Positions 9,889 to 21,955 of a DNA stretch of 44,713 nucleotides are shown here, piece by piece (positions within the stretch are counted from its first letter, which is position 1; the number at the start of each line of letters is the position of its first letter). Source of the stretch: Sideroxydans sp. (lineage in GTDB: Bacteria > Pseudomonadota > Gammaproteobacteria > Burkholderiales > Gallionellaceae); contig JAQUAD010000018.1 in assembly GCA_028687425.1 (NCBI GenBank), forward strand, positions 1 through 44,713, given 5' to 3'. A program made the position numbers and the translations under genes. The notes under the pieces were generated by a model. That model did no database searches. It had not been told where the DNA came from and saw only the letters and a program-made list of their open reading frames with translations.

Positions 9889-10878
9889 CTATCGCGCCAG
9901 TTTGAGTGGCTCGGCGGCAGACTGGTTGAGGTAGTGCACGTTGAACAGTCCATCCTCATCGTGCCAGGTCGCTTGCAGATGCCAGCCCGCACTGCGTGCC
10001 AGCTGTTCGAATTCATCCGCGCTGTATTTGTAGGAGTTCTCGGTGTGGATGGTCTCGCCCGGTTCGAACTCGAATGACTCCTTGCCCAGTCGTATTGCCT
10101 GCCTGCACTGGCTGACCAGATGCATCTCTATGCGTCCGTGCGTCTCGTTGTAATACGCATGGTGTGCGAACTGTGTTGCATCGAGCTTTATATCGAGCTC
10201 GCGCTGCATGCGCGTCAGCAGGTTTAGGTTGAACGCTGCGGTGTGACCCGCGGCATCGTTGTAGGCGGCATTCAGCACTGCGCTGGATTTCTTCACATCC
10301 ACGCCGATCAGCAGGCCGCCGCTGGGGCCGACCAGCTTTGCAACATTCTTCAATAGCGTCACGGCTTCATCAGGTGTGCAGTTGCCGATGGTGGATCCGG
10401 GGAAGAACACCACCTGCCGCTTGCCCGCCTGACGTTTGATCGCATGGTCGGCTAGCTGGTGGTAGTCCGCGCACAGCGGCTGCATCTTCATCGCGCGGAA
10501 CATCGTTTGCAGACGCTGTGTGCTGTTGTGCAGGTGCGATGCGCAGATGTCGATGGGGATGTACACAGCATCGTCGGAGAGGTGGCGCAGGATCAGCGGC
10601 GTCTTGGTGGCGCTGCCGCTGCCCAGCTCGATCAGGGTGCAGCTGTCGCCCGCCATCTCGGCCATCTCTGCACCATGTCGTTCGAGGATGGCGGTCTCGG
10701 TGCGCGTGGGGTAATACTCCGGCGTGGTGCAGATCAGGTCGAACAGGTGCGAGCCGTGCGCATCGTAAAAATATTTCGGTGGGATAGCCTTGGGATGCTG
10801 ACGCAGGCCCGCACGTACGCTGTACAGGAAATCGTCCTCGTCCTGCGCGTAGGATGGTGTAGGGGATTCGTTGCGCAT
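9889..10878 (-). CDS. egtD: L-histidine N-alpha-methyltransferase EgtD
   Basis: This 329-residue SAM-dependent enzyme trimethylates histidine to hercynine, the first step of ergothioneine synthesis. The SAM-binding motif ELGSGSATKT and the EgtD-typical segments KYFYDAHGSHLFD and TPEYYPTRTE are present; length matches the family (about 320). The start at 10878 overlaps the egtB stop by one base (TGATG), which indicates translational coupling. The open frame continues further upstream through egtB, but that part is shadow. Together with egtB it suffices for the hercynine sulfoxide steps. A C-S lyase (EgtE) is not in the window. Confidence 0.93.
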   Translation of the reverse strand: MRNESPTPSYAQDEDDFLYSVRAGLRQHPKAIPPKYFYDAHGSHLFDLICTTPEYYPTRTETAILERHGAEMAEMAGDSCTLIELGSGSATKTPLILRHLSDDAVYIPIDICASHLHNSTQRLQTMFRAMKMQPLCADYHQLADHAIKRQAGKRQVVFFPGSTIGNCTPDEAVTLLKNVAKLVGPSGGLLIGVDVKKSSAVLNAAYNDAAGHTAAFNLNLLTRMQRELDIKLDATQFAHHAYYNETHGRIEMHLVSQCRQAIRLGKESFEFEPGETIHTENSYKYSADEFEQLARSAGWHLQATWHDEDGLFNVHYLNQSAAEPLKLAR

Positions 10879-12116
10879 CAGATGTCCTCCGCCAGACGCA
10901 GTCCGGTGAACGGCCAGCGGTCGGCTGGCCGGAAGAAGTTGCGATAGCTGGCACGCATGTGGTCCTGTGCCGTGACGCAACAACCGCCGCGCAATACCAT
11001 CTGGTCGCTCATGAACTTGCCGTTGTATTCGCCCAGCGTGCCGGGCAGCGGTTTGAAACCGGGATAGGGCAGGTAGGCGCTCTGCGTCCATTCCCACAGG
11101 TCGCCGAACATCTGGGTGAGGCCAGCCTGTTGCGCGGGGCGCGGCACATACAAACCGTTGTCGAGGAAGTTGCCCGCGATGGTTTGCGTGCTGGCCACAT
11201 GTTCCCATTCCGCTTCGGTCGGCAGGCGTTTTCCCGCCCAGCGCGCATAGGCATCGGCCTCGTAATAACTCAGGTGAGATACCGGTTCGTCCATGCGCAA
11301 TGCATGGGCTCCGGTCAGGTCGAAGTGCATCCACTCGCGGTCTTCCCGGAACCAGTACAGCGGCGCCTGCCAGCTTTCTGTCTTGAGTGTGCGCCAGGCA
11401 TCTGACAGCCACAGCTCGACGCGGTCGTAGCCGCCATCGTCGATGAAGGCCTGGTATTCCGCATTGCTGACCAGCCGCGTGGCGAGGCGGAAATCCTGCA
11501 CGTATGTCTTGTGACGCGGGCGTTCGTTGTCATAAGCGAACGCTTCGCCGTCATGACCGATCTCGACGATGCCCGCGTTGAAGTCCTGCCAGCCCATCGC
11601 GATCGCAGGCGCAGCAGGCGGCAGTTCGATCTGGTGGTAGGCAGGATGCAGCGGGTTGAGGGAGAAGTTGTAGCGCGTATCCATCAGCAGCAGTTCCTGA
11701 TGCTGGATCTCGTGCTCCATGCCGAGTTGCAGACGCTGGCGGATGTCGGCGAGATGCTGTTCTGGTGGATTCGACAACAAGTCGAGCAGCGCCGCATCGA
11801 CATGTGCGCGATAGCGGTACACCTCATCCACCGTCGGGCGTGACAGCATGCCGCGCTGCGGACGCGGGAAGAAGGTACCCGCAGTCTCATAATAGGAATT
11901 GAACAGGTGCGCGTACGCTGCGTTCAGCATGCGGTACTGTTTGGCATACGGCACGAGGATGAACATCTCGAAGAACCAGGTGACATGCGCCAGATGCCAC
12001 TTGGGCGGACTCACATTCTCCATCGCCTGGATGCAGTAGTCCTCGACTTGCAGCGGGGCGCACAGTGCTTCGGAACGCGCACGCACAGTGTGATAACGCG
12101 CTATCAGTTCATCCAT
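10878..12116 (-). CDS. egtB: ergothioneine sulfoxide synthase EgtB
   Basis: This 412-residue non-haem iron enzyme couples hercynine to a cysteine-type thiol donor with O2. The N-terminal DinB-like domain carries the iron-binding histidines (WHLAH at 40-44 and HEIQHQE near 135-141). The C-terminal FGE-sulfatase domain is evident from RLPTEAEWEH, FGDLWEWTQ and the terminal SYRNFFRPADRWPFTGLRLA. The gene lies 7 bases after the DUF427 gene and overlaps egtD, forming a three-gene unit. An ECF-type promoter candidate lies upstream of DUF427. Whether the thiol donor is cysteine or gamma-glutamylcysteine cannot be decided here. Confidence 0.93.
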   Translation of the reverse strand: MDELIARYHTVRARSEALCAPLQVEDYCIQAMENVSPPKWHLAHVTWFFEMFILVPYAKQYRMLNAAYAHLFNSYYETAGTFFPRPQRGMLSRPTVDEVYRYRAHVDAALLDLLSNPPEQHLADIRQRLQLGMEHEIQHQELLLMDTRYNFSLNPLHPAYHQIELPPAAPAIAMGWQDFNAGIVEIGHDGEAFAYDNERPRHKTYVQDFRLATRLVSNAEYQAFIDDGGYDRVELWLSDAWRTLKTESWQAPLYWFREDREWMHFDLTGAHALRMDEPVSHLSYYEADAYARWAGKRLPTEAEWEHVASTQTIAGNFLDNGLYVPRPAQQAGLTQMFGDLWEWTQSAYLPYPGFKPLPGTLGEYNGKFMSDQMVLRGGCCVTAQDHMRASYRNFFRPADRWPFTGLRLAEDI

Positions 12117-12123
12117 CGTTTCG

Positions 12124-12414
12124 TCACTCCTCTATGGTGACGCCGTGCCAGAACGCGACGTGATCCTTGATGCGGGCCGCCAGTGCTGACGGCTCGGGGT
12201 AGTACCATGCTGCATCCTCGTTCACCTTGCCGTCAACCTCTACGTTGTAATAACTCGCTTCACCTTTCCACACGCAATGCGTATGTGTGTTGCTGGGCTT
12301 GAGGTATTCCTGCTTCACGGCAGACAGCGGGAAATAGATGTTGCCTTCCACGCGATGGATATCCTTGCTCGCCGCTTCGGCGATGATCTGATTGTTCCAG
12401 ATGGCTTTGGGCAT
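12124..12414 (-). CDS. DUF427-family protein
   Basis: A 96-residue protein that fits DUF427 throughout (NIYFPLSAVKQEYLKPSNTHTHCVWKG is not quoted in full; key parts are YFP, THCVWKG and YYPEP). The family's function is unknown. A good AAGGAG precedes ATG 12414. It is the first gene of the DUF427-egtB-egtD operon, with 7 bases to egtB, so it may assist thiol-histidine chemistry or be a stress-induced passenger. Its promoter is probably the TGTAAG/CGACCAA element at 12457-12486. Confidence 0.85.
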   Translation of the reverse strand: MPKAIWNNQIIAEAASKDIHRVEGNIYFPLSAVKQEYLKPSNTHTHCVWKGEASYYNVEVDGKVNEDAAWYYPEPSALAARIKDHVAFWHGVTIEE

Positions 12415-12456: not shown

Positions 12457-12486
12457 TTGGTCGATCAAGATGTCGATTTCCTTACA
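12457..12486 (-). promoter_or_regulatory. ECF-type promoter for DUF427-egtB-egtD
   Basis: On the minus strand TGTAAG (12486 to 12481) is followed after 17 bases by CGACCAA (12463 to 12457). Three other sites in the window carry the same two blocks with 16 bases between them. This one lies between the nrtS stop and the DUF427 start, leaving a leader of roughly 35-40 bases. The one-base-longer spacer may make it weaker. The role is inferred from pattern only. Confidence 0.6.
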
Positions 12487-12491
12487 GCGGG

Positions 12492-12719
12492 TCATTCTTC
12501 ACAGCGCCGCATTTCGTTGCGTGCCGCGCTGTAACTCGATACGCAGAACGGCACCACGAAATTCAACAGCATCTGCGTCAGGTTGATGGGGCCACCCGAA
12601 AGCAGGTTCCCGCCCTGATTCACCAGATTGAGCAAGGTGCCGACCACCAGCGCCACCTTCAATGCCGGGAGCATGATCTGGCGGCGGCTGGCGATACTGA
12701 GCAGGCGTATCAAGCGCAT
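12492..12719 (-). CDS. nrtS: NrtS-like nitrate/nitrite transporter
   Basis: This 75-residue membrane protein has two predicted helices. The segment ALKVALVVGTLLNLVNQG followed by NLTQMLLNFVVPFCVSSY fits NrtS, a small nitrate/nitrite transporter first described in cyanobacteria. It starts 8 bases after the receiver-like gene ends, so it is the last gene of the minus-strand run from the AhpD-like gene. The link between nitrate/nitrite movement and peroxide defence is not obvious; nitrite or nitrogen-oxide stress would be one reading. The family call rests on remembered sequence pattern. Confidence 0.7.
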   Translation of the reverse strand: MRLIRLLSIASRRQIMLPALKVALVVGTLLNLVNQGGNLLSGGPINLTQMLLNFVVPFCVSSYSAARNEMRRCEE

Positions 12720-12727
12720 GACGCGGG

Positions 12728-13174
12728 CTAGCGGAAGTGACGGCGCAGGATGCGCTCTGCATCGGGTGCGGCGATGTCTTCCTTGTTCAGGAACAGAAAC
12801 ACGTCGCGTTCACCCAGTCGCGGATGCGCTTCTGCCTTGGCGTTGAACGGCAGGATGGTCGCGCCCGGATGTTGCTCGCTCACGATGCGCTGCAGCGTGG
12901 GCAAGGTCGAATCGAACTCGGTCAGGCCCGCGAACATCACTGGCAGATTCGGATAGTGTTTGCGCAACGCAGCGAACACCTCGGCAGGTTTTTCCGGGAT
13001 GGATGAAACCACCGCCGTCGAAATGATCGCGCCGCTGAAGGTGCCCAGCTTGCCGGGTTGCATGTCGCTTACATTCTCCAGTTTGGTCGGCTGGTAATCG
13101 TTCCGCTCCAGGAAGGGCCGCATCTCCGACACGATGAAGGCATGGGGGCGTGCGAGCAGTACTTTCTTTGCCAT
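12728..13174 (-). CDS. receiver-like protein of unknown function
   Basis: This 148-residue cytosolic protein opens like a response-regulator receiver (KKVLLARPHAFIVSEMRPFLE) and keeps an alternating strand-helix pattern. At the place where the phosphorylated Asp is expected it reads GAIISTAVV, so it probably cannot be phosphorylated in the usual way. I do not recognise a named family. AAGGAG precedes ATG 13174; the longer frame upstream is not supported. It is set between the peroxiredoxin gene (10 bases) and nrtS (8 bases), so it is part of the same transcript. Confidence 0.65.
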   Translation of the reverse strand: MAKKVLLARPHAFIVSEMRPFLERNDYQPTKLENVSDMQPGKLGTFSGAIISTAVVSSIPEKPAEVFAALRKHYPNLPVMFAGLTEFDSTLPTLQRIVSEQHPGATILPFNAKAEAHPRLGERDVFLFLNKEDIAAPDAERILRRHFR

Positions 13175-13184
13175 GATGTGCTCC

Positions 13185-14048
13185 TTATGCGGCGGCGATG
13201 CCGTGCTGGCGCAACACCGCGAGGAAGGTGTCCGGCTCCGGGCGCACACGATAGTTATCCGTTTCGTGCGTCCACAGTATCTTGCCGTCCTTGCCGGTGA
13301 TGATCACGGTCGGCATCACCGTGTCGCTGTCGTAGCCCAGCACCTGCATGCCCATGGGCAGACCGTCCTTGTGTTCGATGCCCAGCGTGCGTGCGGCGGC
13401 ATTGCCCTCGTCGGTGAGGAAGTCGAACTTCGCATCGTAGGTCTTGGAAACACCGATGGTGTTCTCGTGCGGTTGCGGTGCGATCATGGCAACACGAACA
13501 CCGAGCGCATCGATCTCCTTGTAGCGCGCGATCAACTCCTTCAATTGCGCCGAGCAGAACGGACACCAGTTGCCGCGATAGAAGATCAGGATCGCGGGAC
13601 GGTCGGTCAATTGTGCCGAGCTGACCATGTTGTCGTTCACATCGCGTGCCGTGAAGTGCGGCAGCTTGCTGCCGATCACCAGTTTCATGCTGGGCTGGCG
13701 ATTGTCGTAGGTGGAGAACCAGTACGAGTACAGCAGGAAGGTCACCCAGCCGCTGGTTGCCAGCAGCGCCGCCAGCGCTTCATTGCCTGTCGTCGCCCAT
13801 TCGAATGCGGGCAGTGCAGCACCTGCCAGTCCCAGCACATTGATGAGCGGGAAGTGTTCACTGGTGCGTGCCAGGTTCTTCAGCATCATGGCGCGCATGA
13901 TCACGGTCAGGATGGGCGCAACGGTCAGCATCACGCCGCCCCAGACCATGGGGGCGCCGCCCTGATAGAGCATCCAGCCCGCATAGCCTGCGATGCCCAT
14001 GATGAGCATCATGTAGCTGCTGATGAATATGGATTTCAGTCGGTTCAT
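13185..14048 (-). CDS. membrane-anchored peroxiredoxin (AhpC/TSA-like)
   Basis: A 287-residue fusion. Residues 1-115 form about four membrane helices, and residues 120-287 form a redoxin domain with the peroxidase-type motif FYRGNWCPFC (C162 and C165). The CxxC arrangement suggests a Prx or thioredoxin-like peroxide reductase tethered to the inner membrane. I chose ATG 14048 (MNRLKS) because GGAG lies 8 bases before it; an ATG at 14060 is in frame but overlaps that site. The AhpD-like gene upstream ends 54 bases away and could supply reducing power. Which side of the membrane the redoxin faces is uncertain. Confidence 0.8.
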   Translation of the reverse strand: MNRLKSIFISSYMMLIMGIAGYAGWMLYQGGAPMVWGGVMLTVAPILTVIMRAMMLKNLARTSEHFPLINVLGLAGAALPAFEWATTGNEALAALLATSGWVTFLLYSYWFSTYDNRQPSMKLVIGSKLPHFTARDVNDNMVSSAQLTDRPAILIFYRGNWCPFCSAQLKELIARYKEIDALGVRVAMIAPQPHENTIGVSKTYDAKFDFLTDEGNAAARTLGIEHKDGLPMGMQVLGYDSDTVMPTVIITGKDGKILWTHETDNYRVRPEPDTFLAVLRQHGIAAA

Positions 14049-14102
14049 TTGTATCTCCATTGTGTTCGGTTGCCGCCGCGCATCCGCGCGGCGGTGCGGT
14101 GC

Positions 14103-14690
14103 TTACGCAGCTTTGCGGGTGCAGGCGTATTCGTCGTTGGCCTGCCAGGCCTCGTTGGCGAATGCGGCATCCAGCGGTGTGTCGGTCAGGTGGTTGGTGT
14201 AATTGCTGAGGGTCTTCATGGCGATGCCGAGCAATACTTCCAGCGCGTTCTGTTGCGTGTAACCGGCAGCGTAGAAATCTTTCAGCTCCTGGCTGCCGTT
14301 CACCCAGCCGCGTTCACGCACCACGGCACGGGTGAAGGCCACCAGCGCATTCAGTTTCTGGTCTTGCAGGCAGCCTTGCGCCCGCAGTGCATCGACACGT
14401 GCACCGTCGACCTTGATCAGATTGCGCGCGAGGAAGGAATGCGCGGCCACGCAGTATTCGCAGCGGTTCTCGATGCTGGCCGAGATCAGCACGACCTGCT
14501 GTTCTTCAGGGGTGAGCGTGCTCTGTTCGAGCAATGCGCCCAGTTGCTTGTAAGCGCTCAGCGCATTCGGCGCTTCGGCCAGATGCGCATACAGATTGGG
14601 GATGAAGCCCAGGCCCTTGTTGGCGGCTTCGAGGATGGGCAATGCGCCGACGGGGGCGCTGGCGAGGTCATGCAGTTTGAATGTGTTCAC
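14103..14690 (-). CDS. AhpD-like carboxymuconolactone decarboxylase-family protein
   Basis: A 195-residue protein of the CMD/AhpD superfamily with the redox motif E-x2-C-x2-C-x3-H (ENRCEYCVAAH; C77, C80, H84). Such proteins act as disulfide reductants or peroxidases. It starts with GTG at 14690, preceded by AGGAGA; the open frame upstream has no better start. It heads the run AhpD-like, membrane peroxiredoxin, receiver-like protein, NrtS. The 116-base gap to the AraC gene upstream holds a direct repeat (GTCCGAAC then GTCCGGAA at about 14789-14804) that could be an AraC site, but this is weak. Confidence 0.82.
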   Translation of the reverse strand: MNTFKLHDLASAPVGALPILEAANKGLGFIPNLYAHLAEAPNALSAYKQLGALLEQSTLTPEEQQVVLISASIENRCEYCVAAHSFLARNLIKVDGARVDALRAQGCLQDQKLNALVAFTRAVVRERGWVNGSQELKDFYAAGYTQQNALEVLLGIAMKTLSNYTNHLTDTPLDAAFANEAWQANDEYACTRKAA

Positions 14691-14806
14691 GGTCGTCTCC
14701 TGAATGGGTTGGGCAACGTGTTTGTTGCGTGGACCCATTGTCAGGATGCGGAGGCTTGCCCTCCATGACCGGAACAGCGTGATTTATGTCCGAACGTCCG
14801 GAAGCT

Positions 14807-15706
14807 TTAGCTACGCAGCTTGCCCGGCGGCACGCCGGTGATGCGCTTGAACGCCTTGCGGAATGCGGCTTCCGATTCGTAGCCGCAGCGCAGCGCGATA
14901 TCCAGCATGTTGGCGCGTTCGTCCGCCAGCATGGCCGTCGCCATCTGCATGCGCCAGGTTGCCACGAACTCCATGGGCGGCATCTTCACCACCTGGCTGA
15001 AGCGCTCCGAAAATGCGGAGCGCGACTGGCAGGCCAGACCCGCCATGCGTTCCACCGTCCATGCTTCGGCAGGCGCATCGATGAAGGCGGCAACGGCAGG
15101 CCGCAGGTGCTCATCCGCCATGGCTGCCAGCAGCGGCGAAAGTTGCGGTTCCATCTCCAGTACATGGCGGATCACATACAGGAACAGGGTGTCGGCCAGA
15201 CGGTCGAGGATCGCGTTCACGCCCAGCGCATTCTTGATCGCCTCGTCCGTCATCAACTCGATCAGCATGCGTATCTGTTTGCCGGAAGGACTCTGGTCCG
15301 GGCTGATCAAAAGGAAGTCAGGAAAAGCAGCGAGCAGCAGACGGCGGATGTGCAAAGGCAGATACAGATGGCCGCACAGCAGGCCGGCGCCCGGCGCATC
15401 GCGATCCAGCGGGGCCGGGTGGTGGTAGTCGAAGGCTTGCTCGGGGATGCCCGGCACGGCGCTGAAAGCGTGCGGCGCATCATGCGCGAAGAAAGCGATG
15501 TCCCCCGCGTTCATGCGCGCAGGCTTGCTGCCGTCTTGCATCACGATCCACGCCTCGCCATGGCACACCAGATGGAAGGTCGTCGCATCCGAACCGCCGG
15601 GCGTGGACATGTGCCATGCATCGCACAACTGGCCGACGTAATACACCTCGGCGCCGAGATGCAGATGGCGCAGGAAATCGTTGATGGGCGGCGGGGCAGC
15701 AGTCAT
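14807..15706 (-). CDS. AraC-family regulator with N-terminal cupin
   Basis: This 299-residue regulator has an N-terminal cupin sensing domain (residues 10-110, including TFHLVCHGEAWIVMQDG and MNAGDIAFFAHDAPHAF) and a C-terminal AraC helix-turn-helix pair (ERMAGLACQSRSAFSERFSQ; DIALRCGYESEAAFRKAFKR). It begins 7 bases after the zinc-finger gene, so sigma factor, zinc finger and AraC gene are probably co-transcribed. The next gene downstream on the strand encodes the AhpD-like protein, a plausible target. The ligand is unknown. Confidence 0.87.
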   Translation of the reverse strand: MTAAPPPINDFLRHLHLGAEVYYVGQLCDAWHMSTPGGSDATTFHLVCHGEAWIVMQDGSKPARMNAGDIAFFAHDAPHAFSAVPGIPEQAFDYHHPAPLDRDAPGAGLLCGHLYLPLHIRRLLLAAFPDFLLISPDQSPSGKQIRMLIELMTDEAIKNALGVNAILDRLADTLFLYVIRHVLEMEPQLSPLLAAMADEHLRPAVAAFIDAPAEAWTVERMAGLACQSRSAFSERFSQVVKMPPMEFVATWRMQMATAMLADERANMLDIALRCGYESEAAFRKAFKRITGVPPGKLRS

Positions 15707-15713
15707 GCGTCGC

Positions 15714-15890
15714 TCACAGCTTGCGAGGCAGTTCGCGCGTCGCCTTGCGGATGAAGGCGAGCTGCTTCTCGAAGTTGCGGCAACCGCGGCACATCAGCAG
15801 ATGCATGCGCATCGCGATGCGCTCGCGCAAGGTGATGGGGCGGTCGTAGGATTGCGACAGGAGTTCTGTGTTGTGTTTGCAGTCGAGCAT
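15714..15890 (-). CDS. small zinc-finger anti-sigma factor candidate
   Basis: A 58-residue protein with an H-x3-C-x2-C motif (H30, C34, C37 in MRMHLLMCRGCRNF), typical of zinc-binding anti-sigma factors of the zf-HC2/ZAS kind; it has no membrane segment. It resembles the short cytosolic type found next to ECF genes, such as MseR of Neisseria. GAGG precedes ATG 15890, which lies two bases after the sigma stop. Oxidation of the zinc-site thiols would be an obvious trigger to release the sigma factor; this is inference. Confidence 0.8.
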   Translation of the reverse strand: MLDCKHNTELLSQSYDRPITLRERIAMRMHLLMCRGCRNFEKQLAFIRKATRELPRKL

Positions 15891-15892
15891 AT

Positions 15893-16456
15893 TTACCTCG
15901 CGTTTCCAAACCAGTTCAGATCCAGACATTCACGCAAAGCTAGTCGTGCGCGGTGCAGGATCACCCAGCAGTTAGTCGTGGAGATCCCCAATTCCTGACA
16001 GATCTCGTCGGTGGACATATCCATGAACTCGCGCATCATGAAAGCGCGCGCAGTGTTGAGCGGCATGCGCTGGTTGCACTGCTCGAACACGTTCCAGAAA
16101 TGTGCGTTCTCCAGCGATTGTTCCGGCGCATTCCATGTCCGCGGCGGATCGGCCCAGTGGCCGTTCTGCTTGAACAGCGCATCCACCAGTTCGTTCTCGT
16201 CCTCGCCCTCGGCCACATCCAGTTGCGGCTCGCGTGCGCGCTTGCGCAGCAGGTCCATGATCTTGTGTTTGAGGATGCCCACCAGCCAGGTGCGCGGCGC
16301 AGACTGTGCGCTGAACTTGGCGCGGCCTTCGATGGCGGCCACCAGCGTCTCCTGCACCACGTCCTCGGCCAGATCGGGATCGCGCAGTTGCAGCATGGCG
16401 TAGCGGATCAGGTAGCTGCGATGTTCGTGCAATGCATCGGGGATGATGTCACTCAT
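15893..16456 (-). CDS. ECF-type RNA polymerase sigma factor
   Basis: A 187-residue group 4 sigma factor: region 2 at residues 13-80 (RDPDLAEDVVQETLVAAIEG; APRTWLVGILKHKIMDLLRK) and region 4 at about 125-180 (EFMDMSTDEICQELGISTTN, then WVILHRARLALRECL). TGGAG precedes ATG 16456. It is followed at two bases by the zinc-finger gene, the usual sigma/anti-sigma order. No copy of the TGTAAG/CGACCAA promoter is seen just before it, so it may be made by read-through from the NPCAA cytochrome promoter upstream, past the terminator at 16511-16538, or from a promoter I cannot see. Confidence 0.92.
   Translation of the reverse strand: MSDIIPDALHEHRSYLIRYAMLQLRDPDLAEDVVQETLVAAIEGRAKFSAQSAPRTWLVGILKHKIMDLLRKRAREPQLDVAEGEDENELVDALFKQNGHWADPPRTWNAPEQSLENAHFWNVFEQCNQRMPLNTARAFMMREFMDMSTDEICQELGISTTNCWVILHRARLALRECLDLNWFGNAR
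15972..16000 (-). promoter_or_regulatory. possible intragenic ECF promoter
   Basis: Within the sigma gene, the minus strand reads TGTCAG (16000 to 15995), 16 bases, CGACTAA (15978 to 15972). The downstream block and the spacing match the four stronger sites and the upstream block differs at one base. It would drive the zinc-finger and AraC genes and so give negative feedback. It could be chance, because it lies in coding sequence. Confidence 0.3.
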
Positions 16457-16510
16457 TCAAACTCCAGAAGGCGGGTGCAGGGCAGGTGCATGGTAGCACC
16501 CGCACAAACG

Positions 16511-16538
16511 CAAAACACCCGCCGGGTGAGGGCGGGTG
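16511..16538 (-). terminator. rho-independent terminator after NPCAA cytochrome
   Basis: Read on the minus strand, an 8-base-pair stem (CACCCGCC at 16516-16523 pairs with GGCGGGTG at 16531-16538) with a 7-base loop is followed by TTTTG. It lies about 20 bases after the cytochrome stop and before the sigma gene, so it should limit, perhaps not abolish, read-through into the sigma operon. Confidence 0.7.
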
Positions 16539-16558
16539 CGCGTGGGGGATGGAAGGGA

Positions 16559-17200
16559 TCAGTGACGCGTCGCGGCACAAGGGTTCTTCGCAGCGCAGGG
16601 ATAGTCCGCTGCGCAAGGGTTCATCGCGGCACAGGGATTCTTCGCCGCGCACGGATTGCCTGCGCGGAAGCCTTTCTGCAGCGAACCAGTGTAGGCGGTC
16701 AGCGCGGCCAGCCGCTTGCTGTTCCAGGGCAGCGGTTTGGCGGCCATGGGTACCACCATGCAGAACTGCACCATCTCATCCAGATGGACCTGCTTCACGC
16801 CGGCACGCTCGCCGGTCATCTGCACGTAGTGTGGATAGGGCTGGGCGAAGGTGGACTGGAAGGCGCCGTTGTTGTCATGGCAGGTGCTGCACGACATGCC
16901 GTTGCTGCTCAATCGGGTGTCGCTGAACAAGCGCTTGCCGTAAGCCATCAGTTCCTTATTGCTGCCACGGTAGGGACGATAGTGGGCCGGGCGCATCACG
17001 CCTTTCACATCCATCTGCACCATCGCGGCTGCGCAAGGATTGGCTGCGGCGCAGGGGTTCTTCGCGGCGCAGGGATTCATGCGCGAGCTGCGCGGCGCAC
17101 AAGGATTGGCGCGACACGGCGCAGCCAGCGCAGTGCCGCCGACGGACAGGCTCAGTACGCCGGAAGCGATCAGGGCATTCATCAGACGGGTCGGTTTCAT
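16559..17200 (-). CDS. NPCAA-repeat c-type cytochrome
   Basis: This 213-residue exported protein has a signal peptide (cleavage near ALA-AP, residue 27), a run of four NPCA units (32-58), a single-haem cytochrome c domain with CSTCH at 104-108 (GKRLFSDTRLSSNGMSCSTC), and a C-terminal run of five six-residue repeats of the form (N/Y)PCAA-x (182-211). Haem would be attached in the periplasm. The nine repeat cysteines could bind metal or form disulfides. AGGAGA precedes ATG 17200. An ECF-type promoter lies at 17229-17257. I do not know of a function for NPCAA repeats. Confidence 0.8.
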   Translation of the reverse strand: MKPTRLMNALIASGVLSLSVGGTALAAPCRANPCAPRSSRMNPCAAKNPCAAANPCAAAMVQMDVKGVMRPAHYRPYRGSNKELMAYGKRLFSDTRLSSNGMSCSTCHDNNGAFQSTFAQPYPHYVQMTGERAGVKQVHLDEMVQFCMVVPMAAKPLPWNSKRLAALTAYTGSLQKGFRAGNPCAAKNPCAAMNPCAADYPCAAKNPCAATRH

Positions 17201-17228
17201 TTCGTTCTCCTGAGTGGGTTGGCGGCTG

Positions 17229-17257
17229 TTGGTCGCACAAGGTCGGCCATCCTTACA
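17229..17257 (-). promoter_or_regulatory. ECF-type promoter for NPCAA cytochrome
   Basis: On the minus strand TGTAAG (17257 to 17252), 16 bases, CGACCAA (17235 to 17229). The predicted start of transcription is about 20-25 bases before ATG 17200. Its upstream block forms an inverted repeat (TCCTTACA/TGTAAGGA) with that of the divergent promoter for the thioredoxin gene; 13 AT-rich bases lie between the two blocks. Confidence 0.75.
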
Positions 17258-17270
17258 AAATATTTTTCGG

Positions 17271-17298
17271 TGTAAGGAATGGCAACTTATTGCGACTA
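17271..17298 (+). promoter_or_regulatory. ECF-type promoter for thioredoxin-CcdA pair
   Basis: TGTAAG at 17271-17276, 16 bases, CGACTAA at 17293-17299. The distance to ATG 17335 leaves a leader of about 28 bases. The element is divergent from and adjacent to the NPCAA cytochrome promoter, so both units should respond to the same sigma factor. Confidence 0.72.
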
Positions 17299-17334
17299 AC
17301 CGGCATCTACACATCACCAACCCAGGAGATTGCC

Positions 17335-17709
17335 ATGTTCAAGAAACTGCTATTCACGCTGACCCTGCTGTTCCCCCTGTTCGCACAGGCCGCAGGCCAG
17401 CCCTATACCCAGGACAAACTGGATGCGCTGAACGAGGCGGGCAAACCGGCGCTGGTGTTCATCCATGCGCCATGGTGCCCCACCTGCCGCGCACAGGATG
17501 CGGTGCTGGACCAGTTGCTGCCGACTGCCGAATTCAAACCGCTCACCACCTTGAAGGTCGACTTCGACAACCAGAGAGATGTGGTCAAGGCATTCGGCGT
17601 GCGCTACCAGAGCACGCTCATCGTGTTCAAGGGCGGCCATGAAGTGGCGCGCGTGACCGGTGAGACCGACCGCGACAAGATCGCCGTACTGTTGCGCAAG
17701 GCGCTGTAA
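17335..17709 (+). CDS. periplasmic thioredoxin-like protein
   Basis: A 124-residue thioredoxin-fold protein with a signal peptide (residues 1-19, FAQAA) and the active-site motif WCPTC (C48, C51). It would act in the periplasm as a disulfide reductant. CAGGAG precedes ATG 17335; the longer open frame is not needed. The CcdA-like gene begins two bases after its stop, so the pair probably moves electrons from cytosolic thioredoxin through the membrane to this protein. Likely clients are the nearby cysteine-repeat proteins or the CxxCH of cytochrome c before haem attachment. Confidence 0.87.
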   Translation: MFKKLLFTLTLLFPLFAQAAGQPYTQDKLDALNEAGKPALVFIHAPWCPTCRAQDAVLDQLLPTAEFKPLTTLKVDFDNQRDVVKAFGVRYQSTLIVFKGGHEVARVTGETDRDKIAVLLRKAL

Positions 17710-17711
17710 CG

Positions 17712-18437
17712 ATGGAACTGAGTCTTTCCAGCTACGGACTGTCGTTCCTCGCGGGCGTGCTGTCCACCTTGTCGCCCTGCGTGCTGCCGCTGGTGCCCAT
17801 CCTGATGGGCTCGGCTGCGGGCACGCATCGCTACGGCCCGTTCGCACTGGTGGGCGGGCTGATGCTGTCGTTCACGCTCATTGGTGTGGGGCTTGGTTCG
17901 CTGGGCGGGAGCATTGGCCTGGAACAGGACACCTTGCGCATGGTCGGCGGCATCCTGCTGTTGCTGTTCGGTGCGGTGCTGGTCTCCAGCCGCTTGCAGG
18001 ACAGGTTCAGTGCAGCAGTCAGCCAGCTGGGCGTTGGGCAAGGCATGCTGGCGCGTTTCAACCTGGACAGGCTGCATGGTCAGTTCCTGCTTGGCCTGTT
18101 GCTTGGCGTGGTGTGGAGTCCCTGTGTCGGTCCGACACTGGGCGTGGCGATCACGTTAGCCAGTCAGGGTGAGGCGCTGGCACAGGTTGCGTCAGTGATG
18201 CTGGTGTTCAGTCTCGGCGCCGGATTGCCCTTGCTCGCACTCGGCATGCTGTCGCGACAGGCGATGGGCAAGTGGCGCGGGCGCATGATGGCTGCCGGGC
18301 AGAAGGCCAAGAAGCTGTTCGGTGTTGCCTTGTTGCTGATCGGCGTGCTGGTGCTGTCGGGGGCGGACAAGGATTTCGAACGCTGGGCGGTCAACGCCAT
18401 GCCGGGCTGGATGGTTGATCTCACTACCCGCTATTGA
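17712..18437 (+). CDS. CcdA/DsbD-like thiol-disulfide membrane transporter
   Basis: This 241-residue protein has about six membrane helices and resembles the DsbD-beta/CcdA family, which carries reducing equivalents across the inner membrane. The two redox cysteines sit in the expected helices (LSTLSPCVLPLVP, C23; GVVWSPCVGPTLG, C138). It lacks the extra periplasmic domains of full DsbD, so the thioredoxin encoded just upstream is its likely partner. The HD-GYP gene follows 15 bases later and may share the transcript. Confidence 0.9.
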   Translation: MELSLSSYGLSFLAGVLSTLSPCVLPLVPILMGSAAGTHRYGPFALVGGLMLSFTLIGVGLGSLGGSIGLEQDTLRMVGGILLLLFGAVLVSSRLQDRFSAAVSQLGVGQGMLARFNLDRLHGQFLLGLLLGVVWSPCVGPTLGVAITLASQGEALAQVASVMLVFSLGAGLPLLALGMLSRQAMGKWRGRMMAAGQKAKKLFGVALLLIGVLVLSGADKDFERWAVNAMPGWMVDLTTRY

Positions 18438-18452
18438 ACAGAGGAGACGCAG

Positions 18453-19289
18453 ATGTCTGAAAAGGAATCCCTGTTGAACACGCTGCTCGGCCTGTCCATG
18501 ATCGTCGAGGCGCGCGATCCCTACACCGGCGGTCATTTGTGGCGTGTGTCGCAATTCTCCAAATTGCTGGCGCAGGAGGCGGGTCTGTCGCAACGCGACA
18601 TCGCGCTGTGCGAGGTCGGCGGCTTCCTGCACGACCTGGGCAAGGTCGGCGTGTCCGACGCCATCCTCAACAAGCCGGATCGGCTCACCGATGGCGAATA
18701 CGCAGTGATCAAGACACATCCCTCGGTCGGCGGTCGTCTGCTGTCCAATCATCCCTTGGCGGATCTGGCCTACGAGGCGGTGGTCGGCCACCACGAACGA
18801 CCGGACGGCAACGGCTACCCGAACGGATTGGCCGGTGAAGTCATTCCGGAAGTCGCACGCATCGTCAGCATCGCCGACGCCTTCGATGCCATGACCAGCA
18901 CGCGCGCCTACCGCAAGGGCATGCCGATGGAAAAAGCCTTCTCCATCATTGGTGAAGAAACAGGACGCCAGTTCGACGCAACGCTGGCGAAACATTTTCT
19001 GTCGCTTAGCAAGACCAGCCAGTTGTCGCACATCGTCGGCCATAGCGAGCCCGGTTTGCCGTTGTTTCAGTGCGGTTGCGGCGCACCGCTGGCGATACCA
19101 GGGACATTGCGCGACGGTGAGCATGTGTACTGCCACTGCTGCGGTGGCGAATCACGATTGAGCAAACACGGCGACGAGCGCAAGCTGGAAATGACAGGCG
19201 AGCAAGGTGATGCCTCGCTGCTCGCACCGGATTGCGATACCGACCTGATCGGTGCGATGGTGCAAGAGATCGCGCCGCATGTGTTGTGA
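18453..19289 (+). CDS. HD-GYP domain c-di-GMP phosphodiesterase with C-terminal zinc ribbon
   Basis: This 278-residue protein has an HD-GYP domain in residues 8-185 with the metal ligands HDLGK (H60-D61), the HHE motif (113-115) and the GYP triplet (121-123), so it should be an active c-di-GMP phosphodiesterase. Beyond residue 200 it carries two cysteine clusters (QCGCG and YCHCC) like a zinc ribbon, which is unusual for the family. It has no receiver or membrane domain. GGAG precedes ATG 18453. It lies 15 bases after the CcdA-like gene and 8 bases before an uncharacterised gene. Confidence 0.88.
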   Translation: MSEKESLLNTLLGLSMIVEARDPYTGGHLWRVSQFSKLLAQEAGLSQRDIALCEVGGFLHDLGKVGVSDAILNKPDRLTDGEYAVIKTHPSVGGRLLSNHPLADLAYEAVVGHHERPDGNGYPNGLAGEVIPEVARIVSIADAFDAMTSTRAYRKGMPMEKAFSIIGEETGRQFDATLAKHFLSLSKTSQLSHIVGHSEPGLPLFQCGCGAPLAIPGTLRDGEHVYCHCCGGESRLSKHGDERKLEMTGEQGDASLLAPDCDTDLIGAMVQEIAPHVL

Positions 19290-19297
19290 GGTGAAAG

Positions 19298-19675
19298 ATG
19301 AATACACAACTGAATAACACAATAGAGATCAACGGCAGGCAAGTGCTGGTGGAATGGAGCAAGGCCGCTGCCCGCGAATTGGCGCAGCGCAGTCAGCCGC
19401 TGGTAGTTGAACTGGAAATTTACTTTTCCTGCCTGGTGAAGAAATTCGTCCACTTCCACGAAGTGCAGCTGCAGCGAGAGACCATCGCCGTCAGCGACAA
19501 ACTCGCCGTCTTCTTCCGCCCAGTCACATCAACTGCCTGCTCGTTCGAGGTCGCTGACCGTCTGGGCCGGCAACCCGAGATCGAGCTCGACACGCCCAAT
19601 GTGCGCAAGTTCGCCCCGAAGCGGGTCAAGCTGGATTTCGTGCGCGGCAACTGGCTGGGGGAGTTCTGGATATAG
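19298..19675 (+). CDS. uncharacterised protein
   Basis: A 125-residue soluble protein that I do not recognise. It has no signal peptide or membrane segment; the middle reads ELEIYFSCLVKKFVHF, and the C-terminal half is basic (KFAPKRVKLDFVRG). GTGAAAG upstream gives a modest ribosome-binding site at ATG 19298. It starts 8 bases after the HD-GYP gene, so the two probably work together or share a signal. Normal codon use and base composition suggest a real gene. It converges on the GDCCVxC operon with a 30-base gap. Confidence 0.65.
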   Translation: MNTQLNNTIEINGRQVLVEWSKAAARELAQRSQPLVVELEIYFSCLVKKFVHFHEVQLQRETIAVSDKLAVFFRPVTSTACSFEVADRLGRQPEIELDTPNVRKFAPKRVKLDFVRGNWLGEFWI

Positions 19676-19705
19676 GAAATACCGGGTGGGCGGGCGGTTG
19701 TTCTG

Positions 19706-19927
19706 CTAGCTGCAACACCCCTTGCCGTGCTCCTGCACCGGCGGGCACGGCACGCTGCCATACGAGCAGTACACGCAACAATCGCCGGGTTTGGGTTTGA
19801 GCAGGGTGTGGCAGTGACTGCATTCGTAGAACCACTGGCATGAATCTGTCGGCATGGTCTCCAGTTTTGAATGCCCGCAGTGCGGGCAGGTGAGCAGGGA
19901 TTCCAGTACGGGTTCGAATGCAGTCAT
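19706..19927 (-). CDS. GDCCVxC-domain protein
   Basis: A 73-residue cysteine-rich protein. It has CPHC and CSHC pairs (a zinc-ribbon-like fold, residues 14-40), then GDCCVYCSYGSVPCPP, matching the GDCCVxC family, some members of which are selenoproteins; here all positions are ordinary Cys. It ends KGCCS. The function is unknown. Its ATG lies one base after the stop of the preceding gene, so it is the last gene of a coupled three-gene operon with the NPCAA-repeat protein. Confidence 0.8.
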   Translation of the reverse strand: MTAFEPVLESLLTCPHCGHSKLETMPTDSCQWFYECSHCHTLLKPKPGDCCVYCSYGSVPCPPVQEHGKGCCS

Positions 19928-19928
19928 G

Positions 19929-20693
19929 TCAGCTTGCCCGGTTGTTGATCTCCTGCTCGATTCTACGCAACAAGTCTTCCACCGAGATAGTTATCTGGCT
20001 GCTGATGTCCAGCGCACGATCTTCGAATACGTCTGCACCGGGATGCGCATCGGCCCATGCCCACACGGTTGCATCGCGCTGCTTTAGCAATGCCTCGATG
20101 TGCGGACGGTGGAGTACGAACATCGCGCTGATCCAGTGGTTCACCGGCAGCGAGGGGAAAGCATGGTCGATGATGAAGTGGTCCAGCATCCGTATCACTT
20201 GCTCAGCCGGATACCAGGCTTCGGCAGTCACCCAGCGGTTGGTGGTGAACAGGGTAGTGGGATAGCCATCCCTGTCCATGGCGATGGCAACCAGGTGTGA
20301 CAGTGCTTCATCGCCCTGCGGCCAGGGATCGGTCGCCGGATAGGCTATGGGCGCGACACCGACAGGCATGCCCTTGGGGCGCAGGAAACAATGGAAGTGG
20401 CCGTGTTCTCCCGTTTCGCTGCGATGCGCGTGGTAGTAATACTGCGCATGCGTCTCGCGGTCATACACGTCGTCTTCCGGGTAGTGGTTGAATTCGTAAA
20501 AAGTCTCGCCGCGGTTCAGTGAATCGCGCAGCACTTCGCCGACGATGTTCAACCCGGCTTTGTTCAGCAGGCGATAGCTGTCCAGAACCACCAGTCCCGC
20601 CTGCCGCATGGCGTGCAACTGCGCCAGCGGCAGGCGTCGGAGGTCAGGCTCTGCAACCTGTCTCGCATCGAGTGCGCTTAGTGCGCTGCGCAT
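19929..20693 (-). CDS. uncharacterised cytosolic protein of the NPCAA operon (DUF6969-like?)
   Basis: About 254 residues with no signal peptide. Conserved-looking parts are LLNKAGLNIVGEVLRDSLNR, YEFNHYPEDDVYD and GEHGHFHCFLRP; the histidine cluster HGHFHC could bind metal. The DUF6969 name is a low-confidence memory. I chose ATG 20693, which lies inside the last codons of the NPCAA gene (16-base overlap, different frame), implying coupling; the frame is open to 20747, but that part is shadow of the repeats. The GDCCVxC gene follows after one base. The role is unknown. Confidence 0.7.
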   Translation of the reverse strand: MRSALSALDARQVAEPDLRRLPLAQLHAMRQAGLVVLDSYRLLNKAGLNIVGEVLRDSLNRGETFYEFNHYPEDDVYDRETHAQYYYHAHRSETGEHGHFHCFLRPKGMPVGVAPIAYPATDPWPQGDEALSHLVAIAMDRDGYPTTLFTTNRWVTAEAWYPAEQVIRMLDHFIIDHAFPSLPVNHWISAMFVLHRPHIEALLKQRDATVWAWADAHPGADVFEDRALDISSQITISVEDLLRRIEQEINNRAS

Positions 20694-20965
20694 GGATTCC
20701 GGGCACCGCACGGATTCTTCGCGGCACATGGGTTCATGGCTGCGCACGGGTTTTTCATCTTCTTGTGTTTGGTGGCGCAGGGATTGTGCTTATGCTTGGC
20801 CGCGCAGGGGTTCTTGCCCGCACAGGGATTGGCCTGGCTGCTCTTGTGCGAACGTGCGGCGCAAGGGTTGGCTGCACCACAGGGGGCGGCGAGGGCGGCA
20901 CCGCTCATGGCAGCGGCCAGTGCGCCGGAAGAGATCAGGGTTTTTGCGAGAGTGTCGAATTTCAT
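20678..20965 (-). CDS. small exported NPCAA-repeat protein
   Basis: A 95-residue protein with a signal peptide (ending ALA-AP, residue 27) much like that of the NPCAA cytochrome, followed by eight NPC(A/G) units (residues 33-94) with basic linkers (KHKH, KHKKMK). The mature protein is mostly Cys, Asn, Pro, Ala, Lys and His, so it may bind soft metals or serve as a thiol buffer; no catalytic domain is present. AAGGAG precedes ATG 20965. An ECF-type promoter lies at 21015-21043. It heads the operon with the DUF6969-like and GDCCVxC genes. Confidence 0.8.
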   Translation of the reverse strand: MKFDTLAKTLISSGALAAAMSGAALAAPCGAANPCAARSHKSSQANPCAGKNPCAAKHKHNPCATKHKKMKNPCAAMNPCAAKNPCGARNPCAAH

Positions 20966-21014
20966 GTTGGTTCTCCTTGGTTGTATGGCATGGCCGGATT
21001 GGCGGATGCATGCA

Positions 21015-21043
21015 TTGGTCGCGGCACTTGGGCCGAACTTACA
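21015..21043 (-). promoter_or_regulatory. ECF-type promoter for NPCAA operon
   Basis: On the minus strand TGTAAG (21043 to 21038), 16 bases, CGACCAA (21021 to 21015). GCGACCAA and the base pattern CGGCC or GGCC in the spacer are shared with the NPCAA cytochrome promoter. The leader to ATG 20965 is about 40-45 bases. Confidence 0.75.
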
Positions 21044-21076: not shown

Positions 21077-21955
21077 TTGACTGCGCACGCACGGGCAAGG
21101 ATACTTCGGGCCGTGCGGCTGGGTGTTCCAGCCGGAAATTTTTCAACACTTTACGATTCTGTGGCTTCTGCGACTGACCCTTCTGCGATTCGATTGAGCG
21201 ACCTGCGCCTTGATGATGCGCGCGCCTTGCTCGAGCATGATCCCTCTTGCGAGTTGCCCAAGCCGGAAGCTTCCCCAACCGTCTACCTGCAAAGCGTGCT
21301 GGATGGCTTGTGCGAACTGTCTTTGCGCGACCCGCTGACCGGCTTGTCCAATCGTCGTCATTTCCAGCATCTGCTGAACATGGAGATCGAATCGGTCGCA
21401 CGTTCCGGTGAGTCGGTACTGCTGCTGATAATCGATATAGATCACTTCAAGAAGGTCAACGACACCTACGGCCATCATGCCGGCGATCTGGTGTTGCAGG
21501 CAGTATCCAAATGCCTGGAATCATGTGTGCGCCCGATGGACACTGTGTCGCGCTTTGGCGGCGAAGAGTTCGCCGCGATCCTGCCCAACTGTCCGGCGAC
21601 CTTCGGCGCGGTGGTGGCTGAACGTATCCGGGAAGCAGTTTCTGAACTCGGTATCACCGTATCCCCGTCTGAAACCATCCATGTCACGATCAGTATAGGC
21701 GGCGCCTATGCGCCGGAATGGGTGCGTTCCACGATCGAATTGTGGACAGAACGCGCGGACGAACAGCTCTATCGCGCGAAATCTGCAGGTCGAAATCGCG
21801 TTTTCATTGAAGAACAGCGCGGCGTTGCCGTTAGTGCAGATGAGAAAGGCATGTTGTTCGGGCATCTCCTGTTCGGGGATCCCGCGTCCGCTGGCGTTGA
21901 TGGCGACGCACCGGGCAGTGCAGTGGCAGACAGTGAAATGAACAGGGCAAACTGA
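21077..21955 (+). CDS. diguanylate cyclase (GGDEF protein)
   Basis: A 292-residue soluble protein with a GGDEF domain (residues 82-245). The active site is GGEEF at 161-165, and an inhibitory c-di-GMP site RPMD lies at 152-155, five residues before, so it should make c-di-GMP under feedback control. The N-terminal 80 residues match no sensor I know. It starts with TTG at 21077; GGAGA at 21066-21070 is well spaced. The MinD/FlhG-like gene follows two bases after its stop, which suggests joint control of motility or polarity. Confidence 0.87.
   Translation: MTAHARARILRAVRLGVPAGNFSTLYDSVASATDPSAIRLSDLRLDDARALLEHDPSCELPKPEASPTVYLQSVLDGLCELSLRDPLTGLSNRRHFQHLLNMEIESVARSGESVLLLIIDIDHFKKVNDTYGHHAGDLVLQAVSKCLESCVRPMDTVSRFGGEEFAAILPNCPATFGAVVAERIREAVSELGITVSPSETIHVTISIGGAYAPEWVRSTIELWTERADEQLYRAKSAGRNRVFIEEQRGVAVSADEKGMLFGHLLFGDPASAGVDGDAPGSAVADSEMNRAN

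Follow-up and report, generated by a model that had tools for sequence, protein, structure and literature searches.

A predicted ECF sigma factor regulon joining thiol protection genes and cysteine-repeat proteins in Sideroxydans

Introduction

In Streptomyces (Actinobacteria), the zinc anti-sigma factor RsrA senses thiol stress, and the sigmaR/RsrA system drives the formation of thioredoxin and of a low-molecular thiol, which is mycothiol and not ergothioneine. The sigmaE factor of Neisseria uses promoters with the consensus GTMAGBWTT (-35) and CGTCTAAH (-10) separated by 12-13 nucleotides (nt), and a conserved A located 6 nt downstream of the -10 is the mapped start of gonococcal msrAB (PMC2893595). 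This factor autoregulates its own operon and controls msrAB (PMC2893595, PMC3240639), and the Cys4 and H-x3-C-x2-C motifs of MseR were reported to be essential (PMC2893595). The present analysis concerns the whole of a 44,713-nt contig of Sideroxydans sp. (Gallionellaceae; GenBank JAQUAD010000018.1, assembly GCA_028687425.1), hereafter the window, in which a short promoter-like element recurs around a gene for an extracytoplasmic function (ECF) sigma factor and precedes genes for exported NPC-repeat proteins, thioredoxin and predicted ergothioneine synthesis.

Other described systems share parts of this arrangement. The RpoE2/HrsE system of Haemophilus influenzae, an ECF sigma factor with a 67-residue zinc-binding anti-sigma (ZAS) partner, responds to oxidant stress and controls msrAB and dmt (PMC7907618), and sigmaF of Caulobacter is a metal-stress ECF sigma factor of DUF2282/DUF692 operons with a GTAACC-N16-CGAA promoter (PMC3511200). 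Control of the Cupriavidus gig operon by RpoQ was only assumed (PMC10304878).

A promoter element around an ECF sigma gene

Four copies of the element TGTAAG-N16/17-CGACYAA are arranged around the genes for the sigma factor and its partner as follows.

12457..12486, minus strand: promoter element with a 17-nt spacer, 42 nt upstream of the DUF427 start codon
17229..17257, minus strand: promoter element, 28 nt upstream of the NPC cytochrome gene
17271..17299, plus strand: promoter element, 35 nt upstream of the thioredoxin gene, forming a divergent pair with 17229..17257
21015..21043, minus strand: promoter element, 49 nt upstream of the small NPC-repeat gene
15893..16456, minus strand: ECF sigma factor (TIGR02943, 257.9 bits, cut-off 162.2; Pfam Sigma70_r2 and r4_2)
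15714..15890, minus strand: zf-HC2 anti-sigma factor (NF052368, 75.5 bits, cut-off 50)

A first-pass annotation of the window had listed these sites as lying 34-50 bases before start codons, with an ECF sigma gene and its zinc-finger partner between them. The sites were recovered where it placed them, and 100 shuffles of the window gave no match; three of the distances (42, 35 and 49 nt) agree with its range and the fourth, at 28 nt, falls short of it. Both regulatory genes score above their family cut-offs, and the translated anti-sigma factor contains a Cys4 (MLDC) together with HLLMCRGC, which has the form H-x3-C-x2-C. The host genome (2,786,938 bases in 119 contigs, 99.2% complete) contains a single sigma factor above the TIGR02943 cut-off, with seven weaker matches below it, and a single anti-sigma factor above that of NF052368.

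In the motif searches below, the reversed motif served as the control pattern. The exact motif with spacers of 15-18 nt occurs four times in the genome, against zero for the control, and these sole matches are the four sites of the window, which fall within 8.6 kb of one another. Allowing one mismatch with a 16-nt spacer yielded seven places against four for the control: three of the four window sites, one within the sigma gene (15972-16000, minus strand) and three elsewhere. The last three were counted as noise, because they lie within long open frames without a convincing gene start downstream; their number is also at the control level.

Conservation of the element and of the sigma factor

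A total of 158 genomes of the family were scanned for the exact motif and for the sigma factor (E<=1e-20), and 8 matches within sigma genes were removed. A site outside the sigma gene was found in 34 of 36 sigma-bearing genomes and in 19 of 122 genomes without the sigma factor (Fisher p = 1.3e-18), so that the motif tracks the sigma factor across the family. All 17 genomes with a close sigma factor (at least 65% identity over most of its length) have a site, with 55 sites in total against 12 for the control. Sites were likewise present in 17 of the 19 genomes with other sigma matches (33 sites, control 19), and the genomes without the sigma factor hold 23 sites against a control of 64.

Conservation extends to bases that formed no part of the search. 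A consensus was built from the window and 40 fetched regions of relatives, in which 83 exact matches with spacers of 15-17 nt were reduced to 71 by removing 8 in-sigma and 4 duplicate or near-end matches. The whole element is 29 nt long in 57 of these sites, 30 in 13 and 28 in one. Directly after TGTAAG, the sites have G (73%), W (98%), W (90%) and T (70%); the fifth and sixth bases after the -10 are a pyrimidine (88%) and a purine (80%), and an AT-rich patch lies 6-9 nt upstream. The pyrimidine-purine step at +5/+6 is present in all four window sites. D-W-W follows TGTAAG in 41 of 50 distinct sites from close-sigma genomes and in 10 of 23 from genomes without the sigma factor (p 0.002).

The targets themselves recur in the fetched regions of close-sigma genomes, where a site within one mismatch lies upstream of trx in 13 of 13 cases (10 exact), of the NPC cytochrome gene in 13 of 13 (12 exact), of the small NPC gene in 10 of 10 (8 exact) and of all 8 DUF427 genes, which come from 7 genomes (7 sites exact, of which one is 161 nt distant); because the regions were picked around motif matches, these counts show the position and identity of the targets, not their frequency. 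In ten of the 13 NPC cytochrome cases, 191-199 nt separate the site from the cytochrome gene, and this stretch always encodes a peptide of 41-43 residues, the first gene after the promoter in these relatives.

L066, L069, L080, L081, L082, L083, L085, L088, L089, L090: conserved membrane peptide rich in Cys (MSMMCKMNSSCETTPGMCVHEKMM...), encoded between the promoter and the NPC cytochrome gene

The same type of peptide was also seen in L076 and L091; none is present between the site and the NPC cytochrome gene in the window.

Further targets in relatives that exceed their Pfam cut-offs are DUF2282 (one tested, 88.5 bits), DoxX, glutaredoxin and phosphorylase genes, and 90-residue pieces matched radical SAM, methyltransferase and SelR families below cut-off. 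The view that only NPC genes carry the motif was discarded, as bufferin, DoxX, radical-SAM, methyltransferase, glutaredoxin and SelR-like genes follow it as well in relatives. As a separate observation, the radical-SAM protein and the methyltransferase that follow the motif in L068, L071, L096 and L104 are presumably ArsS- and ArsM-like.

The association was also seen beyond the family. A contig search with the DUF6969 alignment (a protein family encoded downstream of the 21015 site; see below) provided loci from the best 80 of at least 562 relatives. Beyond the first 8 of these, 72 loci remain, with no Gallionella, Sideroxydans or Nitrosomonadales among their titles, and they contain 17 motif matches in 834 kb against zero for the reversed control, with CGTC permitted in the -10 and spacers of 16-17 nt. 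Nine of the 17 precede an NPC-repeat frame (in L151, L152, L154, L185, L187, L188, L190 and L198) and two lie within sigma genes.

Sigma-dependent promoters or other origins of the sites

These patterns make it very probable that the ECF sigma factor encoded at 15893-16456 uses the four elements as its -35/-10 promoters, driving a stress regulon for thiol protection and Cys-repeat proteins. Besides the selection bias of the ortholog counts, several points weigh against this reading. Matches occur in 19 of the 122 genomes lacking the sigma factor, though their 23 matches are fewer than the 64 of the control. Two sigma genomes, G004 and G086, have no site outside the sigma gene; the sigma match of G086, counted among the other matches, is partial and has stops inside at 74% identity. 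G017 and G064, with only a distant sigma factor (46-47%), also have sites before NPC genes. Finally, the -10 of all four window sites, CGACYAA, departs from the Neisseria CGTCTAA at its third base, and at 6-9 nt the AT-rich upstream patch is nearer than the 30 nt reported for Neisseria. The Neisseria form CGTCTAA does occur in relatives L146, L151 and L154.

The motif might instead be bound by another regulator, such as the AraC-type protein encoded at 14807-15706, a gene of the same cluster that was also found in several relatives. This explanation appears improbable, given that the motif has two spaced blocks and a start-site signature and matches the sigmaE promoter of Neisseria; moreover, the motif follows sigma genes across the family, and the AraC homolog in L102 itself has the motif 24 nt upstream. 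Even harder to credit is an origin of the sites by duplication of a promoter region, leaving remnants with no conserved function. Their confinement to 8.6 kb would fit such an origin, but spacers vary among the four copies, many relatives retain sites before the same genes, and NPC genes retain them in other groups.

The proposal of one ECF regulon made in the first-pass annotation is therefore upheld by the co-occurrence of motif and sigma factor, the conservation of unsearched bases and the recurrence of the same targets in relatives; its thiol function is something that we infer.

An internal site within the sigma gene

The one-mismatch site in the sigma gene and a hairpin upstream of that gene bear on how the sigma and anti-sigma genes could be expressed.

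15972..16000, minus strand: fifth, one-mismatch site within the sigma gene, 81 nt upstream of the anti-sigma start; candidate internal anti-sigma promoter
16515..16539, minus strand: terminator-like hairpin between the cytochrome and sigma genes

Support for the hairpin is weak, with 13 such hairpins in the region against a mean of 8.6 (standard deviation 2.8) in shuffles. The internal site coincides with DNA for a region 4 helix of the form C-x-[ED]-[LM]-x-[IVL]-x-x-[TS]-N, a pattern shared by 27 of the 42 distinct sigma genes; the other 15, which lack it, were set aside. In most of the 27, the DNA encoding the helix resembles the promoter. The 220 nt upstream of 23 anti-sigma genes were examined, and in 19 the best match was the in-sigma site, 80-81 nt from the start; 5 of these are exact, 13 have one mismatch and 1 has two.

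Codon choice at the helix was compared with that elsewhere in the same sigma genes. Cysteine is encoded by TGT in 25 of 27 helix positions and 22 of 59 elsewhere (p 1e-6), and threonine by ACT in 20 of 26 and 20 of 179, respectively (p 6e-12), both p values being inflated by shared ancestry. Because synonymous choice is biased towards the motif, mere coding coincidence was set aside, and the pattern suggests that the site is an internal sigma-dependent promoter that would yield extra anti-sigma factor.

Genes served and a proposed mechanism

The genes that the first-pass annotation had assigned to the four sites were borne out for each of them by profile matches and translations.

12124..12414, minus strand: DUF427 protein (PF04248)
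10878..12116, minus strand: EgtB (TIGR03440 equivalog, 561.9 bits, cut-off 360)
9889..10944, minus strand: EgtD-like histidine methyltransferase (PF10017, 374 bits; start approximate)
16559..17200, minus strand: SoxA/TsdA-like cytochrome c, exported-looking, with NPCAA repeats at both ends
17335..17709, plus strand: thioredoxin with a signal-like N-terminus and a CPTC site
17712..18437, plus strand: CcdA-like membrane electron carrier (DsbD_TM)
20678..20965, minus strand: small NPC-repeat protein of 95 residues with a signal-like start
19929..20693, minus strand: DUF6969 protein (PF22308, 266.6 bits, cut-off 27; start codon uncertain)
19706..19927, minus strand: GDCCVxC domain protein (NF041374)

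The EgtB equivalog and the histidine methyltransferase match together form a predicted ergothioneine pair, and the gene order after the 21015 site is small NPC protein, DUF6969, GDCCVxC.

By analogy with MseR and RsrA, the zinc-finger partner (15714-15890) would hold the sigma factor until oxidant, disulfide or metal stress. Once released, sigma would transcribe the NPC-repeat cytochrome gene and then its own gene and that of the anti-sigma factor, giving autoregulation. The divergent promoter would supply a periplasmic thioredoxin and its membrane electron feeder, with electrons passing from CcdA to thioredoxin and on to periplasmic Cys proteins, while DUF427-EgtB-EgtD would provide ergothioneine as a cytosolic thiol. 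The 21015 promoter would serve three genes, for a small NPC-repeat protein destined for export, DUF6969 and GDCCVxC; the NPC peptides are most likely acted on by DUF6969 while still in the cytosol. The NPC peptides may bind a soft metal, and the exported Cys-repeat proteins probably buffer metal as would the bufferins found under the same promoter in relatives. The regulon as a whole would thus protect both envelope and cytosolic thiols.

Several neighbouring genes lie in or beside the cluster. The frame at 12731-13174 has no Pfam match; the motif precedes the start of its L097 relative by 32 nt and is missing before the window copy. An HD-GYP-like gene (18453-19289) within the cluster and a GGDEF-like gene (21077-21955) beside it were named from their translations; relatives of the former occur near trx-ccdA in other loci.

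DUF6969 and Cys-repeat peptides

Within the family, DUF6969 was found in 19 of 36 sigma genomes and in 0 of 122 without the sigma factor (p 5e-15), a count that includes fragment copies in G021 and G150 and one copy with stops in G099. Of 369 genomes sampled from the class, 30 have DUF6969, and 19 of these 30 loci show a Cys-repeat reading frame (one Cys tripeptide present in three or more copies) immediately upstream on the same strand. Controls gave 3 of 30 and 3 of 30 on the opposite strand, and 1 of 30 (+1500) and 0 of 30 (+900) in shifted windows. Two further loci, L114 (contig end) and L126 (overlap), have Cys-repeat frames that the pairing rule missed. The repeat units of the paired peptides differ and include NPCAAK, NPCAPSARGG, NPCAPGGGYGG, PCGL, PCSL, NPCSLDED, CAAT and GCC.

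In the best 80 loci, an NPC frame was present within the fetched flanks of 56 and in none of the other 24, some of which are on short contigs. By a rough motif rule, the nearest frame in the 56 encodes a small NPC protein (28), a cytochrome c (16) or a cytochrome P460-like protein (12); the P460 domain exceeded the Pfam cut-off in one of two such proteins tested. NPC-repeat regions fused to cytochrome P460-like domains were observed at L166:6936-8081 and L171:9679-10959, in Thermopetrobacter and Hyphomicrobiales records. More broadly, DUF6969 and Cys-repeat peptides with a wide range of repeat units often stand together in Proteobacteria (L109-L138, L139-L218).

The family comprises at least 562 relatives among at least 591 pattern stretches. 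An alignment of 36 proteins has Y87, H88, H90, E96, H97, G98, H99, H101, F103 and H133, among others, as invariant residues. A structure predicted with a pLDDT of 93 gave no match at E<=0.001 in a fold search against PDB and BFVD, and a sequence search against PDB gave zero matches. DUF6969 is probably a cytosolic protein, because it has no signal-like start. A literature search on DUF6969, GDCCVxC, NPCAA and NPCxxxNPC found nothing relevant.

Unlike repeat units beside DUF6969 far outside the family suggest a direct relation between the two, and DUF6969 is a candidate, unproven, for a maturase or metal loader of Cys-repeat peptides. A more specific proposal, held tentatively and at clearly less than even probability, is that this protein is a His-rich metalloenzyme without a recognised fold that modifies cysteine and thereby matures ribosomal peptides of a new and widespread class. 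These would be exported, would have multi-copy PC cores and, in this lineage, would stand in for bufferins under a sigmaE/MseR-type stress regulon. The cores of that class would include NPCAAK, NPCAPSARGG, PCGL and NPCSLDED, and would also occur within cytochrome c and cytochrome P460-like proteins. At least four matches to an NPC DNA pattern occur in 7 of 30 class genomes with DUF6969 and in 5 of 339 without it (p 7e-6), and these five rule out a confinement of NPC arrays to DUF6969 genomes. True NPC-repeat frames in L234 (17 NPC), L247 (10), L241 (5) and L246 (4), from G218, G463, G414 and G233, where no DUF6969 match was found, likewise speak against strict pairing and lower the odds of the maturase reading.

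These four frames also enter a competing account, to which a chance somewhat short of even is given: a known bufferin and methionine-sulfoxide stress regulon of the Neisseria sigmaE type that carries lineage-specific cargo, with NPC proteins as ordinary metal or thiol buffers and DUF6969 as an accessory. The promoter class is the same as in Neisseria, and in relatives the motif precedes DUF2282, DoxX, glutaredoxin and, below cut-off, SelR-like genes; the NPC-repeat proteins of the four sampled class genomes lacking a DUF6969 match look exported and indicate that such proteins can do without it. Against this account, the host genome has neither DUF2282 nor MNIO, and the pairing of DUF6969 with unlike Cys-repeat peptides far outside the family points to a direct relation. 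Since both families are absent from the host genome, the NPC/DUF6969 pair may fill the bufferin role there.

The maturase proposal, if true, would mean that the kind of stress regulon known for MNIO bufferins also hosts a second, unrelated Cys-peptide system. The analysis gives uncharacterised exported Cys-repeat proteins a clear sigma-promoter code and, through their ties to thiol reduction and ergothioneine, a first functional handle, and it makes DUF6969, a family with hundreds of members, a candidate that can be tested for peptide modification or metal loading as a new enzyme.

Comparison with known systems

The first-pass annotation had stated that no described system has this content. 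This appears to hold for the gene set: NPC proteins, DUF6969, Trx-CcdA and DUF427-egtB-egtD were not found described together in the literature searched, which was covered in part, by title and start of abstract, for ECF factors with ergothioneine or thioredoxin, ECF motifs, and ribosomally synthesized and post-translationally modified peptides (RiPPs) or cytochrome P460. It does not hold for the promoter and the sigma/zinc-anti-sigma pair, both of which match sigmaE/MseR of Neisseria.

In common with sigmaE (NMB2144) and MseR of Neisseria meningitidis, the locus encodes an ECF sigma factor with regions 2 and 4 and an adjacent small soluble anti-sigma factor with H-x3-C-x2-C and Cys4 motifs. 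The -35 type and the 12-13 nt spacing are also shared, with TGTAAGGWWT and a purine at +6 in the present element, and in both cases the stress regulon is small (PMC2893595). The cargo differs, consisting here of NPC proteins, DUF6969, Trx-CcdA and DUF427-EgtB-EgtD, and in Neisseria of msrAB and the NMB2140-2145 operon, which has DUF2282/MNIO content. A profile search of the host genome for DUF2282 and MNIO (PF05114) gave zero matches.

RpoE2/HrsE is similar in its ECF sigma and ZAS pair and has a DoxX-family protein in its regulon (PMC7907618). Caulobacter sigmaF, as a metal-stress ECF sigma factor of DUF2282/DUF692 operons with a GTAA-containing -35, is also similar. The window sites have TGTAAG and CGACYAA, not GTAACC and CGAA; the negative regulator of sigmaF, CC3252, has six transmembrane segments (DUF1109), whereas the window encodes a small zf-HC2 partner with a soluble zinc finger (PMC3511200). 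Bufferin/MNIO RiPP clusters likewise place a Cys-rich precursor beside a metal-dependent enzyme, sometimes with sigma genes, to which the NPC peptide and DUF6969 would be the analogue; the bufferin enzyme is an MNIO with a DUF2063 partner, whereas solved structures include no significant match to DUF6969 in sequence or fold (PMC12452194, PMC12668002).

The gene set of the regulon and the pairing of DUF6969 with Cys-repeat peptides look new. Because the promoter class matches that of Neisseria sigmaE, the regulon predicted here is one of a described type with new cargo: a variant in content of the known ECF-ZAS regulons, of which the DUF6969/Cys-repeat pair is the newest part.

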